From a virus: 34,341 nucleotides of DNA. Of the stretch, positions 19,737-28,952 are shown piece after piece. Positions within the stretch are counted from its first letter, which is position 1. Each line of letters begins with the position of its first letter. The notes under the pieces were generated by a model that saw nothing but the letters and a program-made list of their open reading frames with translations, did no database searches and was not told the DNA's origin. The DNA is taken from positions 1 to 34,341 of the IMG/VR virus record IMGVR_UViG_3300020172_004404; one strand, given 5' to 3'. The translations under genes were made by a program, and so were the position numbers.

Positions 19737-21296
19737 TCAACTCAATATGGCAGCTGGTGCTGACTGTATTGGAATTACTAAATGATTTTTTGAAGTCACG
19801 AAATCAAATCCTTGCATGGATAATATGCGTTGATGATTGGCAGCAACGTCATCAAGTGCTTCTTCGCCAAGACTGTAACCCAATTTGGTTGCGTGTTCAA
19901 TTAATGTAACCCATCGTTGATATCTAGCATTGACTGTGAGTGAGGGATTTTGATCTGAACGCCACTCTATTGAGTTGTTGTGCCCGTGTACCCATTCAAT
20001 ACCAAGATCTGACTGCATGGCTTCTATAGGTGTGCCTGGTAAGATAGTCATGGTGTATTTTAGACTTATACCAAGGATAGTTCGATTGATAATATAACGT
20101 TGGTATTGTGTGAACATGTTCAACGTATCTTGAAAGTCCTGTTCAGTTTCTGTTGGATACCCCACTAGAGTCAACATGAAATTTGTAATACTGTACTTCT
20201 CACACATTTGCAAGTGATAGTCAATGTCTGCGTTTGAAAACTTTTTGCCCATGTGAGTTCTCACTCTCTCGCTGCCACTTTCTACTCCCACCGCCAAATG
20301 GTTACATCCTGTGCTGGCCATGAGTTTGTACATACGGTCTGAATGACTACTTCGTGGACGTATAATAAATTGTCCACTGAAGGTTAATTTTTTTAGTTCT
20401 GGGTATTGCGTTTGATATTGATCCACGGCTTCTAGCAATTCCATAAACTGTTTTATACTACCATTGATCAAGCTGTCGTTGAACCAAAAATCAGTTACTC
20501 CAGTTTGTTGCCAATGTTGGACCATTTCGTCGGCCAAACTGCGCCCACTCCGATACTTGAATTTTTTCCAAATAGCACCCACATCGCAAAAGGTACAACG
20601 CCGCACACACCCTCGACTGCCGTTGAGTGTTATTACTTGTCGATTACGCGGCCCACAATAGTTGCTGAGCTTGATTTTTCTATAACTGTTGTTGCTGACT
20701 GAGTCAAGATCTTCGATTGCTGTTGGCCATGTGTTGATGACTTGCTGATTGTTGATACCAACTGCATAAAAGTTTCCTGCTAAAAAATCTGTAAATACTT
20801 GATCACCTTCTCCCAGTACATAATAGTCAACAATGCTGTGTTTGGCCAGCCAACTACCAAATGTCATTGTGGTGCCACGCACTTGATAGGGTGAGCTTAC
20901 TCCTGGACCACCAATAATGGTTGTTAAGTTTGGTGCATATTGTTGGCATGCACGTAAAAATCTTTCAGCCCATTGATTTTGCATGTAACTGAACACAGTT
21001 ATAGCCATAGCATCGCATCCACTTTGCACAATTTTATGCACAACATCATTGATCAAATTGTCAACAGCAATGTCTAACTCTTTGGGTAAGGTATCTAAAT
21101 TATTTTGACTGTACGGGATGGTTTTAGACCAAATGTCTGCACCATGTTGCTGATGGAATTCACTGTTGAGATCGTAAACCACATAGTCTACCTGTTGTGA
21201 TTCGCACACCCCGGCTAAAAATGCCAGTGCCGCAGGCGCACGTAACAAAGACAACTGTGCGCTGGCAACCAATGCTACTTTTTTAAACACCGACAT
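19737..21296 (-). CDS. B12-binding-domain radical SAM-like enzyme
   Basis: 519 residues from ATG at 21296 (TTG at 21302 is an alternative). Residues about 5-185 look like the Rossmann-like cobalamin-binding domain of this family: a first beta strand VALVASAQLSL, CDAMAITVFSY, TTIIGGPGVSS and VDYYVLGEGD. No DxHxxG motif is visible, so any cobalamin would lack a protein histidine ligand there. The radical SAM domain begins near residue 220, with the iron-sulfur cysteines in GCVRRCTFC (Cys230, 234, 237; CX3CX2C). It continues through FWFNDSLI, an AVGVESGSERV strand and a LTLVGYPTE strand. Relatives perform methylations, rearrangements or carbon-carbon bond formation; the substrate is unknown. It is last in the minus-strand operon, overlapping the beta-sandwich gene by 14 bp and ending in TGA beside the RNA terminator. 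Confidence 0.8.
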   Translation of the reverse strand: MSVFKKVALVASAQLSLLRAPAALAFLAGVCESQQVDYVVYDLNSEFHQQHGADIWSKTIPYSQNNLDTLPKELDIAVDNLINDVVHKIVQSGCDAMAITVFSYMQNQWAERFLRACQQYAPNLTTIIGGPGVSSPYQVRGTTMTFGSWLAKHSIVDYYVLGEGDQVFTDFLAGNFYAVGINNQQVINTWPTAIEDLDSVSNNSYRKIKLSNYCGPRNRQVITLNGSRGCVRRCTFCDVGAIWKKFKYRSGRSLADEMVQHWQQTGVTDFWFNDSLINGSIKQFMELLEAVDQYQTQYPELKKLTFSGQFIIRPRSSHSDRMYKLMASTGCNHLAVGVESGSERVRTHMGKKFSNADIDYHLQMCEKYSITNFMLTLVGYPTETEQDFQDTLNMFTQYQRYIINRTILGISLKYTMTILPGTPIEAMQSDLGIEWVHGHNNSIEWRSDQNPSLTVNARYQRWVTLIEHATKLGYSLGEEALDDVAANHQRILSMQGFDFVTSKNHLVIPIQSAPAAILS

Positions 21297-21801
21297 TGCC
21301 AAGATCCTGTTTGAATTTGCCCAACGCTTGTGTTAGTGCTTGTTGGTTTTCTTCAGTTGGCACAAACAATCCAATCATTGAGCCATTGCGTTGAATGTTT
21401 TGTTTTACAATCCAGTTTACCAAGGGTGTCTGTACTGGTATTGAGTACACACCATTTGGTCCCCATGTCAACCCAGCAAGTAGTGTGACATCGTCAAATC
21501 TAAATGTGCCCTGTGACTTGACCCACTCGGGTAAACAAACATCTTGTACCCAGATGTTTTTTAATGTAACTGTTTGATCTTGTAAAATAATGCCCTGGTC
21601 ATGAACTATATTAAAATTTTGTTTGCCCCAGCGTTCAATGTCAAATGTGTGCGCACCATCAACAACATCATAGTTGACTTTGACATATTCGTATGAGCTG
21701 GTAAAGTCGTGGTCAACTAACACATCGCCGTCAATGCCAATGCGTATTTTTGGCCAGCCGTTGCACTCTGTGGCTTCAAATTCAAACAGTACAGTTTGCA
21801 T
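21283..21801 (-). CDS. Small beta-sandwich protein 2, carbohydrate-binding-module-like
   Basis: 172 residues, a likely distant paralogue of the protein at 16332-16811. The strands run TVLFEFEATE, PKIRIGIDGDVLVDHDF, YVKVNYDVVDGAHTFDIERW and LQDQTVTLKNIWVQDV. The C-terminal part repeats GPNGVYSIP and PLVNWIV. The first ~90 residues look like a calcium-dependent carbohydrate-binding module of the xylan-binding type (IDG turn, DGAHTFDI strand), by pattern only. In this half of the island it directly precedes the radical SAM gene, whereas its relative sits between the aminotransferase-like genes, so each enzyme group has one. The ATG at 21801 overlaps the upstream stop by one base (TAATG). It has no signal peptide. 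Confidence 0.5.
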   Translation of the reverse strand: MQTVLFEFEATECNGWPKIRIGIDGDVLVDHDFTSSYEYVKVNYDVVDGAHTFDIERWGKQNFNIVHDQGIILQDQTVTLKNIWVQDVCLPEWVKSQGTFRFDDVTLLAGLTWGPNGVYSIPVQTPLVNWIVKQNIQRNGSMIGLFVPTEENQQALTQALGKFKQDLGNVGV

Positions 21802-23942: not shown

Positions 23943-24173
23943 TTAAAAATATGGTAATCCTGATTTTTTAGTCACATCCATGTGCTCCTTGATTATTAAA
24001 CCAATAGCTTCACGTTCGGTAAAACTAAGACCCATAGCTTCACTGTAGGTAAGACCACCGCGCATGTGCCAGCAAATTTTAAGAGTCTCAAGGCGTATAT
24101 TTTTCGCCTCCTTTTCCATCTTATCGATTGTGTTGCTGATTTGCTCTACGGATTGGATTAGGAGGCTGCTTCG
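23943..24173 (-). CDS. -1 frame extension of gp26 (76 residues), reached by predicted frameshifting
   Basis: In the -1 frame relative to gp26 an open frame runs from the slippery site to TAA at 23945-23943. It encodes 76 residues with a helical, protein-like sequence: SVEQISNTIDKMEKEAKN, RLETLKICWHMRGGLTYSEA, FTEREAIGLIIKEHMDVTKK and the end SGLPYF. The only ATG that could start it alone is at 24119, and no SD precedes it, so independent translation looks poor. A -1 slip at 24173-24179 would make a 350-residue gp26 fusion. The layout recalls tail assembly chaperones (lambda G/GT) encoded beside the tape measure. The product also resembles a small protein found next to gp26 in other aquatic T4-like phages, as I recall. 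If there is no frameshift, it would be a 58-residue protein from 24119. Confidence 0.72.
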   Translation of the reverse strand, partial: RSSLLIQSVEQISNTIDKMEKEAKNIRLETLKICWHMRGGLTYSEAMGLSFTEREAIGLIIKEHMDVTKKSGLPYF

Positions 24174-24179
24174 AAAAAA
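24106..24179 (-). promoter_or_regulatory. Programmed -1 frameshift signal (slippery site plus stem)
   Basis: Reading the minus strand, the zero frame is AAT TTT TTC, giving the canonical heptamer T_TTT_TTC (24179-24173). After a 6-nt spacer (24172-24167), GCCTCCT (24166-24160) pairs perfectly with AGGAGGC (24112-24106), a 7-bp GC-rich stem with a 47-nt loop that could form a pseudoknot. The -1 frame has TAA at 24182-24180, and the zero frame ends at TAA 24160-24158. Both frames are therefore open only for 24179-24161, exactly where the heptamer lies. Confidence 0.75.
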
Positions 24180-24994
24180 TTAGACATATCTAGTGTGTAA
24201 TTTTGTTGATACTCGTTACTGCAATTTCTACATGTGATGTCAAGTGGCTTGAGTTCAGCTTGTTGTTTGATTTCAATAATATGGTCGCGCACTTTCATGT
24301 AAACTGCTCGATCGCAATTCAACAACCAGTCAGTAATGTGTTGCTGATCTGTAACACGAGATTGTGGTGTTATAACCATTGCTATGTTTTGTGCAAGAGC
24401 TTCGCTGGTAAACTGTGTAATTTTCTTTAATACTGCACCTAGCTTGGTCATTTTTTCTTCATCGGCAATTTCACTATCTTGCACAACTTGCATGATTTTT
24501 TGATCTTCAAACTGTCGCATGTTGTTGTCGTTAATCTGTTGATAGGTCATGGGACAAAAGTGCAGTTCAAGATCACCAAGTCTCAAAGTTTTTTGGTAGT
24601 CAGGTGATTTGATATTTTCCATAACCACACGTAGATCAAGATCGTAGTTGTCTTCGTGCTCACACTTGGGGCAACGTGTGCTAATTTCCATTGTGTGTCC
24701 GTAAGTGGCAATTCTAATGGCCACAAGCACAGTATCAATGTCGCTAACTGGCATTGACCAAGCATTTTTGATGTTTGGCACACAGCTCTGGATAACAGTA
24801 GGCACAGCCGACCCGTTAAACAATGAGTCTGGTGTGCGATACGTAATTTCGTCCATGGTGGTCATGGGCATGACCGGATATTCACTATTGGCTGTGCGTT
24901 CTAACGACTGTCCTTCGTAAAAATTGCCGCCGCTGGGTAATTTTATGTAAATTGCAGGTTGTCTAAAATATTGCTTTAGTGGGTTGTGTTCCAT
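24158..24994 (-). CDS. 26: Baseplate hub protein gp26-like (T4_baseplate family)
   Basis: 278 residues. The N-terminal half carries the family pattern: AIYIKLPSGGNFY (15-27), YPVMPMTTMDEITYRTPDSL (39-58), VIQSCVPNIK and VLVAIRIATYG. Two Cys pairs, CPKC (about 108-111) and CRNC (about 256-259), look like a zinc ribbon. In T4 this protein takes part in hub assembly with gp51 and the tape measure gp29. The zero frame ends FFEAAS-TAA, and the FF codons form the slippery heptamer of the predicted frameshift. The start ATG at 24994 has AGAGGA as SD, and a TATAAGTA octamer lies further upstream. It leads a leftward operon whose remaining genes are accessory enzymes. Confidence 0.82.
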   Translation of the reverse strand: MEHNPLKQYFRQPAIYIKLPSGGNFYEGQSLERTANSEYPVMPMTTMDEITYRTPDSLFNGSAVPTVIQSCVPNIKNAWSMPVSDIDTVLVAIRIATYGHTMEISTRCPKCEHEDNYDLDLRVVMENIKSPDYQKTLRLGDLELHFCPMTYQQINDNNMRQFEDQKIMQVVQDSEIADEEKMTKLGAVLKKITQFTSEALAQNIAMVITPQSRVTDQQHITDWLLNCDRAVYMKVRDHIIEIKQQAELKPLDITCRNCSNEYQQNYTLDMSNFFEAAS

Positions 24995-25027: not shown

Positions 25028-25035
25028 TACTTATA
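25028..25035 (-). promoter_or_regulatory. Late promoter octamer TATAAGTA for gp26 operon
   Basis: The minus strand reads TATAAGTA from 25035 to 25028. The expected start is near 25022, giving a 28-nt leader that holds the gp26 SD. The same variant occurs before the portal gene at 28945. It is separated by 12 nt from the opposing GATAAATA, so the two predicted starts abut. Confidence 0.55.
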
Positions 25036-25049
25036 GGCGCACATTATCC

Positions 25050-28000
25050 ATGGTAACAGAAGATCAACTCAACAATTTATTTTATGAGATTCGCGATCTC
25101 ATAAAAACACTGAACGCAACCACGGGCACCCGTGGTACTCGCGCTGATCCAGGCCTTGATAGAAATACTGCTAGTTTGGACAAATCTACTCAGGGCACAT
25201 CAAAATTAATTCTGGGACTTGCTAAATTGGCTGCCAGTTTGGATGGAACCAAACGAACTCGTGCCGAAGAACAACAATCAATGAAACGATTTGCGGCCGA
25301 CGTTGACCGAGCTAGCAAAGCACAAGAAAAACAACAAGCACAAATAGAAAAAACTTTGGCAGCTCAAGCCAAGGCCAAGGTAACGGCTGAAGAGTTGGCC
25401 GAAGCTGAAAAGAAAGCCAGAATAGAAGTTGCAGCCAAATCTGAACAAGATCGCAAAGATCGTCTTTCGTCCCAGCAATCTCGCATACGCGAGTCAGCAC
25501 AAGCAAAAAGTTCTAGCCAACAACTTTATGATACCTATACCAATCTTGGGTCAGGCACTGATTTATTAAAAACTAGATTTTTTGATCTAGCTGGGGATAG
25601 CATGAAAGGGCAAGTGGCCCTGCAGGTATTTTCAGCTGGCGTAGAAGGTGCAGCCAAGGCCATTGGCACATATTCAACAGCACTGTACAAGGGTGAACGT
25701 GGAGCAATAGTCAGCGCCAAGGCCCTGACTGATATGGTATCTCCAGTGTTGAAAGTGATTGATACATTGGGTGTAATAGTACAAGTTGGTAGTTTCTTTG
25801 TGCCAGGCGGTCTTTTCATAAAAGGTGCAACGGCCGCTATTGGTGCATTATTGAGTCTGGGTGCCAAGGCAGGTGAAGTTGCACTGAAGTTCAACGAATT
25901 GGCTGCCGAGCAAGCTGACAAACTTTTCAAGAGCTTTCAACTGTTGAGTCGTAGTGGTGCAGCTGGTGCTCGGGGCATGGACGATGTATTTGATAACATG
26001 CAAGCCCTGGGCATGACTGTGGCTGAGCTTGACGAATTTAACGAACTACTGAGCAAGAACAGTCAAAAGTTATCATTAATGGGCACTACTGCGGCGCAAG
26101 GCGCTCGCGCATTTGCTGACGTTGCCGGCGGACTTTACAAGAGCAAACTAGGCGAACAACTTGAAATGTTGGGCATGAATGCAGGGGAACAACGCGACGC
26201 TGCCTTGGCCTACATGGATATACAAGCTAGAACAGGCCGCCTTGAACTAAGAAACACAGATTTACTGATTAAAAAATCTTCAGACTTTGCAAGAGAACTT
26301 GATTTAGCGGCCACGTTAACTGGACAAACACGCAAAGAACAAGCGGCAGCTAGAGAAGCCGCACTGGCTGAAACTAGATTCCGTGCTGCCATGGTTGCAG
26401 CTCAGCAATCCGGTGATACTGAAAGAATGGCTAGATTGGATGCGGCACAACAGGCTGCCGCATTGGCCAAGGCCATGGGCGATGAACGCGGATTTAAGGG
26501 CATATTACAATATGCTGCCGGTGGTATGACCACACCAGAAGCTGTGGCTGCTGAACAAACATATCGTATTAGTGAAATACTAGCAAGGCCAAGTCAGAGC
26601 CAATTAGAGATGGCTCAACACATGGGCGCCAGTGTTAAGTTACAACAGGAAGCATTGGCAAATTCCACAGCCCTTGTTGGCAACATTGATGCGTTGCAAA
26701 CTGACTTTGTTAAAACAGCAGACTTCCAGCAACGAATTGCCAACCTCATGGAAGAGGCCAACAAGCAAGGGTTTACTGGCTCAGATGCATTGCAAAAAGT
26801 TTTAGAAACTGAACAAGGCAAACGCATTGCTGCCGGCGGCGACACTAAATTAATGGTTGAAGCTGGTCGCGCACAACAAAGTGCAGCCATGACCATGGAC
26901 AGTGTTGTTAGCACATTTAACGGTGCTGCCAAGATACACGACATAGCTGCCAAAACTTTTGATAGTGCTGTCAAACTGTTTGCCACCACAGTTGGTGCCA
27001 AGGCAGTTGTGGGCGGTACACCCACAACAGGTGAAACAGGTACTGCTGTACCCAGACTGCCCACAGTTGAAGTGGCCGAATCGGCAGCTAAAGTTGCCAA
27101 GGCAACAGCTGATGTTGCCCTTGAACAAGCCGCAGTGGCCAACGATCAACTTAAGGAAGCAGAGATTGAACTAGCAAGGATGAAAACAGCTAGGGCATCA
27201 AAAGAAGAACAACAAAAGGCACAAGACAAAATTACTCAAGCCCTTAAAGAAAAAGAAAAACTTGAGCAAGAAGAAATCAATGCTGCCCGTGAAGCACGAC
27301 AAAAACATCTTGAGGCCAAGAATGCAAGACAACGTGCTCGTCGAGGAGAAGCTCCCACAACTGGTAACGTTCCCCCAGCTACTGCAACTCCGGGTGCTCC
27401 TGCACTTCCAAGTGCACCTGTACCGGCACCCGTACCAATCACTGCAAAAGAAGCTAGTGAAGCTAGAAAAACTACTCAAACTAAACTCGAAACGTCAACT
27501 GCCACCCGAGAGAAAGCTGAAAAAACGTCAGGCAGAGATTCACAAGAAGCAAAAGACGCTAGAATTGCAGAAGATAAAGCAAGAGTAGAAGCTGAAAAAG
27601 CAAGAAGACTAGAAGAAACTGCTACACGTAATGCCGCTAAGGGACTACCAACTTTTAAAGAATCAACGGCTGTACCCACAACAAGTACCCCACCACCTCC
27701 ATTGAAAAATGGCCGAGAAGAAACCCCTGAGGGTATAATAGAAGCAATGAAAGCGGGTGCTCTTACCATGGGTAACGTTCCCCCGGTTACTGCGCCTCCT
27801 GCGCCCCCAGGTGCTCCCATAACTGGTAAAGTTCCCCCGGTTACTGCGCCTCCTGCAGGCGCCTCTCGTATGCAAGAACCACCTCGTCCGGCTGACCCGG
27901 CAATGGTAGCTCAACAACGAGCAGGTGCTCCCACAACTGGTAAAGTTCCCCCAGGTACTGCGTCCCCTGCGCCCTTAAGTATTGGAGGCTCTTCAACAGC

Positions 28001-28943
28001 ACCAACGGTAGCAGGCGCCAATGCCGAGTTAACAAAATATGCAAAAATCTCTGGTGCAAATAATAAAAGTTTAGGTTTTAGTGCATTAGCAGAAAATATT
28101 ACTAAGTTTGAAAGTGGCCAACAAGGATATGCCGGCACCGGATACAACGCTTATAATAGAGGAACTGTCGGTAATAAAATGATAGGGGCAGATAAACCTA
28201 TAGATTTTAGTAAAATGACAGTTGCTGAATATCTTCAACACGGTCGGTTAAAATCAGGAGATCCAGACAAAATTTTTGCTGTAGGAAAATATCAAATTAT
28301 TCCTGCCACTATGGAAGGACTAGTGAAGAAATTAGAATTAGATCCTGGAAAAACAATTTTAGATAAGGATACACAAGATTTATTATTCAATGAAGGTTTA
28401 ATTAAACAAGCTAGACCAAATGTAGCCTCTTATCTTGAAGGAAAAAGCAATAACAGAGATCTTGCTATATTGGACCTGGCTAAAGAATTTGCTAGTGTCG
28501 GAGTACCTTACCCTGCAGGAAAAGCAACAGCACGTGGGGAATCATATTATGCAGGAATTGGTGGTAACAAGGCACATAATCCTCCTGAAGCAGTAGGTGC
28601 AGCATTAGATGCGGATAGAAAAACAAAAATTTCAGCAGCCGAAGGAGGTATTTTGAGTGGTCCAACTTCGGGTTATAGAGCTATTTTACACGGGGCAGAA
28701 GCAGTGGTTCCTTTGCCCGACGGCAAAAACATACCAGTTAATCTTGGGTCCGGTGGTGGTGGTGAAGGGATGGACAACCTTGGAACCGCAATTGAAAATT
28801 TAAGAACAGATCTGCGTGAGTTTGTGTCAATGCAACGTGGGCAAACGTCAGGTGAAATGTCCAGATTACTGTCTGATCTTGTGGACCTACAGCGCAGAAA
28901 TAACAGCACACTTGGATCGTTATTGCAAGTGTCGGCTAATTAA
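25050..28943 (+). CDS. Tail tape measure protein with C-terminal lysozyme-like domain
   Basis: 1297 residues. Residues about 70-160 are Lys/Glu/Ala/Gln coiled coil. Residues about 180-290 contain hydrophobic helices (VGSFFVPGGLFIKGATAAIG, residues about 249-268), as in other tape measures. Residues 300-690 are alanine-rich helix. Residues about 690-960 alternate charged helix with Pro/Thr-rich repeats. Residues about 1010-1190 resemble a muramidase/transglycosylase domain: ITKFESGQQGY with candidate catalytic Glu1021, later IFAVGKYQIIPATM. The end, AAEGGILSGPTSGYRAILHG then AEAVVPLPDG, is typical of phage tape measures. It sets tail length and probably opens peptidoglycan during DNA entry. 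Codon use in the lysozyme-like part is more AT-rich than in the rest. It would be the counterpart of T4 gp29 but is more than twice as long. The start is ATG at 25050, with a weak SD. Confidence 0.78.
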   Translation: MVTEDQLNNLFYEIRDLIKTLNATTGTRGTRADPGLDRNTASLDKSTQGTSKLILGLAKLAASLDGTKRTRAEEQQSMKRFAADVDRASKAQEKQQAQIEKTLAAQAKAKVTAEELAEAEKKARIEVAAKSEQDRKDRLSSQQSRIRESAQAKSSSQQLYDTYTNLGSGTDLLKTRFFDLAGDSMKGQVALQVFSAGVEGAAKAIGTYSTALYKGERGAIVSAKALTDMVSPVLKVIDTLGVIVQVGSFFVPGGLFIKGATAAIGALLSLGAKAGEVALKFNELAAEQADKLFKSFQLLSRSGAAGARGMDDVFDNMQALGMTVAELDEFNELLSKNSQKLSLMGTTAAQGARAFADVAGGLYKSKLGEQLEMLGMNAGEQRDAALAYMDIQARTGRLELRNTDLLIKKSSDFARELDLAATLTGQTRKEQAAAREAALAETRFRAAMVAAQQSGDTERMARLDAAQQAAALAKAMGDERGFKGILQYAAGGMTTPEAVAAEQTYRISEILARPSQSQLEMAQHMGASVKLQQEALANSTALVGNIDALQTDFVKTADFQQRIANLMEEANKQGFTGSDALQKVLETEQGKRIAAGGDTKLMVEAGRAQQSAAMTMDSVVSTFNGAAKIHDIAAKTFDSAVKLFATTVGAKAVVGGTPTTGETGTAVPRLPTVEVAESAAKVAKATADVALEQAAVANDQLKEAEIELARMKTARASKEEQQKAQDKITQALKEKEKLEQEEINAAREARQKHLEAKNARQRARRGEAPTTGNVPPATATPGAPALPSAPVPAPVPITAKEASEARKTTQTKLETSTATREKAEKTSGRDSQEAKDARIAEDKARVEAEKARRLEETATRNAAKGLPTFKESTAVPTTSTPPPPLKNGREETPEGIIEAMKAGALTMGNVPPVTAPPAPPGAPITGKVPPVTAPPAGASRMQEPPRPADPAMVAQQRAGAPTTGKVPPGTASPAPLSIGGSSTAPTVAGANAELTKYAKISGANNKSLGFSALAENITKFESGQQGYAGTGYNAYNRGTVGNKMIGADKPIDFSKMTVAEYLQHGRLKSGDPDKIFAVGKYQIIPATMEGLVKKLELDPGKTILDKDTQDLLFNEGLIKQARPNVASYLEGKSNNRDLAILDLAKEFASVGVPYPAGKATARGESYYAGIGGNKAHNPPEAVGAALDADRKTKISAAEGGILSGPTSGYRAILHGAEAVVPLPDGKNIPVNLGSGGGGEGMDNLGTAIENLRTDLREFVSMQRGQTSGEMSRLLSDLVDLQRRNNSTLGSLLQVSAN
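27350..27970 (+). repeat. Dispersed proline-rich repeats in the tape measure gene
   Basis: Four imperfect copies of a unit of about 45 nt, starting near 27351, 27756, 27810 and 27924. They share GGTGCTC or a variant, then GGTAA(C/A)GTTCCCCC and (A)CTGC. The encoded unit is (A/G)APTTGKVPPVTAPPA-like. They surround charged helices and precede the lysozyme-like domain, so they probably act as extended linkers. Such repeats can also promote recombination. Confidence 0.7.
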
Positions 28944-28944
28944 C

Positions 28945-28952
28945 TATAAGTA
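28945..28952 (+). promoter_or_regulatory. Late promoter-like octamer TATAAGTA before the portal gene
   Basis: TATAAGTA lies 1 nt after the tape measure stop and 7 nt before the portal ATG (28960). The same variant heads the gp26 operon. Transcription starting from it would give an almost leaderless portal message. Confidence 0.45.

Follow-up and report, generated by a model that had tools for sequence, protein, structure and literature searches.

A conserved -1 frameshift signal at the end of the gp26-like gene of a T4-like phage, predicted to give short and long forms of a tail assembly chaperone

The gp26-like gene studied here very probably serves a T4-like phage as its only gene for a tail assembly chaperone, and -1 slippage at a T_TTT_TTC heptamer followed by a stem would yield two products from it, of 278 and 350 amino acids. 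The window, which is the whole stretch of DNA analysed, is a virus record of 34,341 bases. Programmed -1 frameshifting to a 350-residue form had been proposed in a preliminary description of this DNA, whose coordinates all proved right, and it is strongly supported by comparison of sequences with respect to the heptamer, the open -1 frame, the constraint on synonymous codons and the stem. The features of the locus are as follows.

24158..24994, minus strand: zero-frame gene, short form, 278 aa (PF12322, phrog_150, AlphaFold2/BFVD)
24173..24179, minus strand: slippery heptamer T_TTT_TTC, zero frame AAT TTT TTC (direct reading; conservation)
24167..24172, minus strand: spacer GAAGCA, 6 nt (helix start 5-7 nt past the heptamer in 65/80 representatives)
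24160..24166, minus strand: 5' arm of the stem, GCCTCCT (fold z -3.69; p 0.026 against synonymous shuffles)
24106..24112, minus strand: 3' arm of the stem, AGGAGGC (evidence as for the 5' arm; partner elsewhere in other clades)
23943..24173, minus strand: -1 frame extension, 76 codons and stop; C-terminal domain of the predicted 350-aa form (conservation; AlphaFold2)
25028..25035, minus strand: T4-late-promoter-like box TATAAGTA, suggestive only (2 copies in the window; equalled in 23/100 shuffles)

The source of the window is a T4-like phage. The record encodes a gp20-like portal protein (PF07230, E 1.1e-99), and its other products include a head maturation protease, a late sigma factor, SbcC/SbcD-like subunits, and baseplate wedge and hub proteins. 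Because relatives of its gp26 were found on contigs reaching 354 kb, the window is probably a piece of a jumbo phage genome. The gene at 24994-24158 encodes a protein of the T4 gp26/gp51 family (PF12322, E 2.9e-15), with a score of 57 bits versus the family cut-off of 24.5, and it matched phrog_150 (baseplate hub) with an E of 1.4e-16. The AlphaFold2 model of this protein has a pLDDT of 87.8, and its top BFVD match is a T4-like baseplate hub assembly protein (E 3.3e-25). Sequence and fold searches of the PDB with the same protein returned coiled-coil-like chance matches only, with no solved tail chaperone among them. The gene had been described as lying next to the tape measure gene. A long neighbouring gene is indeed present at 25050-28943, but it is divergent and weakly recognisable as a tape measure gene (phrog_15478, E 0.035).

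Two copies of TATAAGTA, which resembles the T4 late promoter TATAAATA, occur in the window, one directly upstream of gp26 (minus strand) and the other directly upstream of the portal gene (28945-28952, plus strand). At least as many copies were found in 23 of 100 shuffles of the window, and for the copy some 34 nt before gp26 begins the likeness to a T4 late promoter is suggestive only. Elsewhere, between structural and hypothetical genes, the minus strand at 19737-21302 encodes a 521-aa radical SAM protein (PF04055, E 4.9e-16) with a weak B12-binding match (PF02310, E 2.7e-4).

The 3' end of the window gp26 is AAT TTT TTC GAA GCA GCC TCC TAA, and the heptamer can be read directly in the zero frame of the minus strand, at the position first reported. 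As also reported, it lies inside the 19 nt in which both frames are open, bounded by a TAA of the -1 frame at 24182-24180 and the zero-frame TAA at 24160-24158. No other in-frame TTTTTTC was found when all window ORFs of 150 aa or longer, with 9,760 codon positions in total, were scanned. Relatives were gathered with gp26 from viral contigs and phage genomes, one scan being queried with the extension, and removal of identical sequences left 105 distinct loci with a readable gp26 end. The heptamer counts are not circular because these relatives were collected by protein similarity and not by the slippery site. T_TTT_TTC was found in register at the end of the zero frame in 102 of the 105. The Xanthomonas phage XacN1 has T_TTT_TTT instead. 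At locus L098 (2310-2328) the heptamer position reads TTTTTCC, and A_AAT_TTT three bases upstream is the sole canonical -1 site; this is possibly a natural change of slippery site. Neither a slippery site nor a -1 extension was found in the distant huge phage L027 (LR756508, about 2001-2775), the sole such locus of the 105.

We then considered codon choice in 80 representatives of less than 80% nucleotide identity, from which L027 was left out for want of a site. NNT TTT TTC is present in 78 of them, compared with 7.55 expected from each gene's own codon usage. The codon preceding the FF pair ends in T in all 80, whereas the residue that it encodes varies (S, N, D, H, R, T, Y, A). FF pairs elsewhere in the same genes are written with mixed codons. 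The base 3' of the heptamer is G in 78/80, with the zero-frame residue varying among E, G, A, D and V; the G makes the -1 codon CGN (Arg).

From 24173 the -1 frame continues for 76 codons to the stop at 23945-23943, with the next ATG 2 nt on, and the predicted fusion of 274 and 76 residues has the 350 aa originally calculated. In each of the 104 distinct relatives with a site this frame passes the gp26 stop and stays open for 70-79 codons; conservation of both the T-rich heptamer and the -1 frame across homologues had been named as support for frameshifting. All members of the window's clade have an extension of 76 aa, with conserved R..LL, MRGG and ETTKK..LPFF, and extensions of the RaK2 type proved homologous to it (HHalign E 5.9e-9). 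AlphaFold2 modelled the extension with a pLDDT of 87.7 and predicted helices at residues 9-38 and 51-71. Public annotations of relatives split the extension off or omit it. It is unannotated in the records of RaK2 (L024) and PA5oct (L017), and only its 3' part is annotated in Atu_ph07 (L013).

The downstream frame might instead be an independent small gene of 58 aa, translated from the ATG at 24119 through reinitiation or coupling after the gp26 stop. Most relatives do have an in-frame ATG, and database records, for example those of Atu_ph07, 121Q and CBB, show a hypothetical gene of its own here. This explanation appears improbable, since the 18 codons preceding the window ATG are conserved as protein, and in the relatives too conservation of the -1 protein extends to the part that precedes any start codon. 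The preliminary description counted a single ATG in the extension, whereas there are several (residues 19, 37, 47 and 65); it was right that the first of them has no Shine-Dalgarno sequence. That ATG, at residue 19, falls within the predicted helix 9-38. Fifty of the 80 representatives lack both a start bearing a Shine-Dalgarno sequence and any in-frame start further upstream. Of the 80, 13 have no ATG at all or reach their first one only from codon 30 onwards, and the 73-codon extension of PA5oct contains no ATG, GTG or TTG. An independent gene would also leave the synonymous constraint on FF and the stem unexplained. We rejected it on the start codon, Shine-Dalgarno and conservation data and on the position of the ATG within the helix. 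Homologues lying in other relative frames, or with a Shine-Dalgarno sequence of their own for the small gene, had been named as evidence that would count against frameshifting; this comparison did not refute it, the -1 relation and the heptamer being near-universal in the clade.

The stem was likewise found as described. After the spacer, GCCTCCT pairs with AGGAGGC in a perfect 7-bp stem, which was recovered by folding. The fold of this locus has a minimum free energy of -17.5 kcal/mol (z -3.69), and none of 200 shuffles was as good. When this locus was compared with synonymous shuffles, which preserve the -1 protein and its codons, p was 0.026. The same comparison gave p<0.05 in 59 of 80 loci. 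Combining the 80 loci gave a p of 4e-59, to be taken only as a rough guide since it counts related loci as independent. A strong helix with its 5' arm starting 5-7 nt past the heptamer was present in 65 of the 80 representatives, as against 1-14 of 80 when the test was repeated at 23 control offsets, the value of 14 belonging to the overlapping offset +5. Single-strand folds agree with the stem. The position of the 5' arm is fixed, and its 3' partner lies about 36, 42, 66, 74 or 87 nt past the heptamer depending on the clade. Thirty-five different helix sequences occur in several registers, such as GCCTCCT/AGGAGGC, GGCTTTTATCTCT/AGAGATAAAAGCC and AAGCTTCTCTAT/ATAGAGAAGCTT. A fixed 5' arm with a shifting 3' partner is not predicted by coding constraint. 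These loci have the structure looked for in a -1 site, 5-9 nt past the heptamer and conserved by covariation, with a minority in which it is weak or absent. The stem was weak or missing in L041, L050, L084, L117, L151 and L023, and such relatives indicate that it is not indispensable.

No Shine-Dalgarno-like stimulator of the dnaX type was found upstream of the heptamer in the window. GGAGG or AGGAG precedes the heptamer in 19 of 59 cyanophage-type loci. In many cyanophage gp26 genes, among L033, L034 and the cyanophage-type loci L155-L234, GGAGGG or GAGGG was seen in conserved LEG codons about 10-20 nt upstream of TTTTTTC. In cyanophage gp26 this motif could, judging from its sequence, be an internal Shine-Dalgarno stimulator as in dnaX.

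The heptamer and the stem also bear on transcriptional slippage, in which an extra U on the T6 run would make the long form with no ribosomal frameshifting. Slippage of this kind is known in bacteria, and the run is lengthened to seven T in XacN1 and HTVC008M. Six T, however, is short for RNA polymerase slippage. Polymerase slippage needs neither a heptamer fixed in codon register with a 3' C nor a stem 5-8 nt downstream, a spacing typical of ribosomal -1 sites. We give this explanation the same slight chance as the independent gene. A sequencing error, a decaying frame or a coincidence of heptamer and stem is less probable still and, as far as sequence allows, is already refuted: single features of this kind do arise by chance and the window stem alone reaches p 0.026, but the same arrangement recurs in more than 100 jumbo-type and 59 cyanophage-type distinct loci, and an in-frame TTTTTTC occurs only once in the larger ORFs of the window.

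The signal at the end of gp26, its conservation, the constraint on synonymous codons and the base-paired element are shown by the sequences. From this comparison we infer that slippage occurs, with some efficiency, that its product exists and that the proteins serve as chaperones. In the reading that we prefer, programmed ribosomal frameshifting, most ribosomes would terminate at 24158 and release the 278-aa short form. A minority, stalled by the stem 6 nt downstream, would shift at T_TTT_TTC into the -1 frame and produce the 350-aa form with a two-helix C-terminal domain. By analogy with lambda G/GT, the products most likely act as a tail assembly chaperone in a short and a long version. As suggested by lambda G/GT and T4 gp26/gp51, the short version would cover the tape measure protein in many copies, and a few copies of the long one would recruit tube or hub subunits.

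The number of genes of this family differs between T4 and the other phages. In T4, PF12322 matches gp26 as well as gp51, whose genes are adjacent and divergently oriented, and there is no slippery site at the end of T4 gp26. Compared with these two genes in T4, PF12322 was found once in 22 of 23 jumbo relatives, and a T4-style second gene in jumbo genomes was rejected on this count. In the remaining jumbo phage, SCTP-2, the gp26 gene was missed by the profile and found by tblastn. S-PM2, P-SSM2, HTVC008M and KVP40 have one PF12322 gene each. Of the 59 distinct cyanophage-type loci, which include KVP40, 58 have T_TTT_TTC, and HTVC008M has T_TTT_TTT. The gene upstream of cyanophage gp26 encodes the tail tube protein (phrog_45, E 1.9e-40), and a long ORF lies downstream, as in lambda. 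Since the cyanophage extension is similar to residues 209-244 at the C-terminus of T4 gp51 (E 6.3e-5), gp51 looks from its sequence like a fused long form. No sequence similarity was detectable between the window's extension and either gp51 or the cyanophage extension. On balance we favour, with some reserve, the view that making the chaperone pair by frameshifting is the ancestral state of the T4 superfamily as a whole, with jumbo phages, cyanophages and KVP40 among its members. The two genes of T4 would then be derived, with a duplication fixing the long form as gp51, and the 5' arm of the stem would have been kept by the slippery site while its 3' partner was re-created at several positions.

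T4 has long been listed as an exception to the tail chaperone frameshift of nearly all long-tailed phages, and a review describes the frameshift as widely conserved 'except T4' (PMC5009743). Because near and far kin of T4 carry the conserved signal in the homologous gene, this exception looks like a replacement by duplication in the T4 lineage. The annotation of many jumbo phages can be corrected, since the extension now stands as a separate hypothetical gene or is omitted. With more than 30 stems that differ naturally while the slippery heptamer is the same, these loci also offer material for learning how structure drives frameshifting.

The conserved -1 frameshift of long-tailed phages was reportedly described by Xu, Hendrix and Duda in 2004, and T4-like tail assembly chaperones are said to have been identified by Vladimirov, Gautam and Davidson in 2022 (Virology 566:9, PMID 34826709). 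Of the papers citing the latter, PRFect refers to it for T4-like phages in which the short and the long form each have a gene (PMC10885494), and the phage Adele paper refers to it for poly-T sites of -1 slippage in T4-like TAC-N genes (PMC12846349). These reports indicate that the kind of system is already known, and the remark in the preliminary description that no such account of gp26 in T4-like phages had come to notice is probably out of date. Part of the group may already be covered by Vladimirov et al. 2022, to judge from these citations. None of the papers searched joined this frameshift with jumbo phages or RaK2, and in them we found no description of the site in jumbo or uncultured clades, of the contrast between single-gene and two-gene phages, or of a stem with a shifting partner.

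The likeness to lambda G/GT that was first pointed out fits at the level of sequence. In both, the heptamer lies just before the zero-frame stop, the C-terminal extension is small, and one gene would give a short form and a -1 extended form. The lambda order of tail tube, chaperone, extension and long tape-measure-like gene is found in the cyanophage relatives. Unlike lambda, the window has a downstream stem at fixed spacing, and the long neighbour is divergent in its clade. A -1 frameshift of a myovirus tail chaperone gene is likewise known from Vandenendeviridae and Andersonviridae (phage Adele, PMC12846349), where the site is also poly-T and the extension is open in all genomes; the motif there is GTTTTT and that of the window is T_TTT_TTC. 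The hub assembly chaperones listed for T4 include gp26 and gp51, the latter being required yet absent from the particle (PMC3004832). These two share with the window protein the family PF12322 and a shorter and a longer form, whereas in T4 these forms come from two separate divergent genes with no site at the gp26 end and in the window they would come from one locus.
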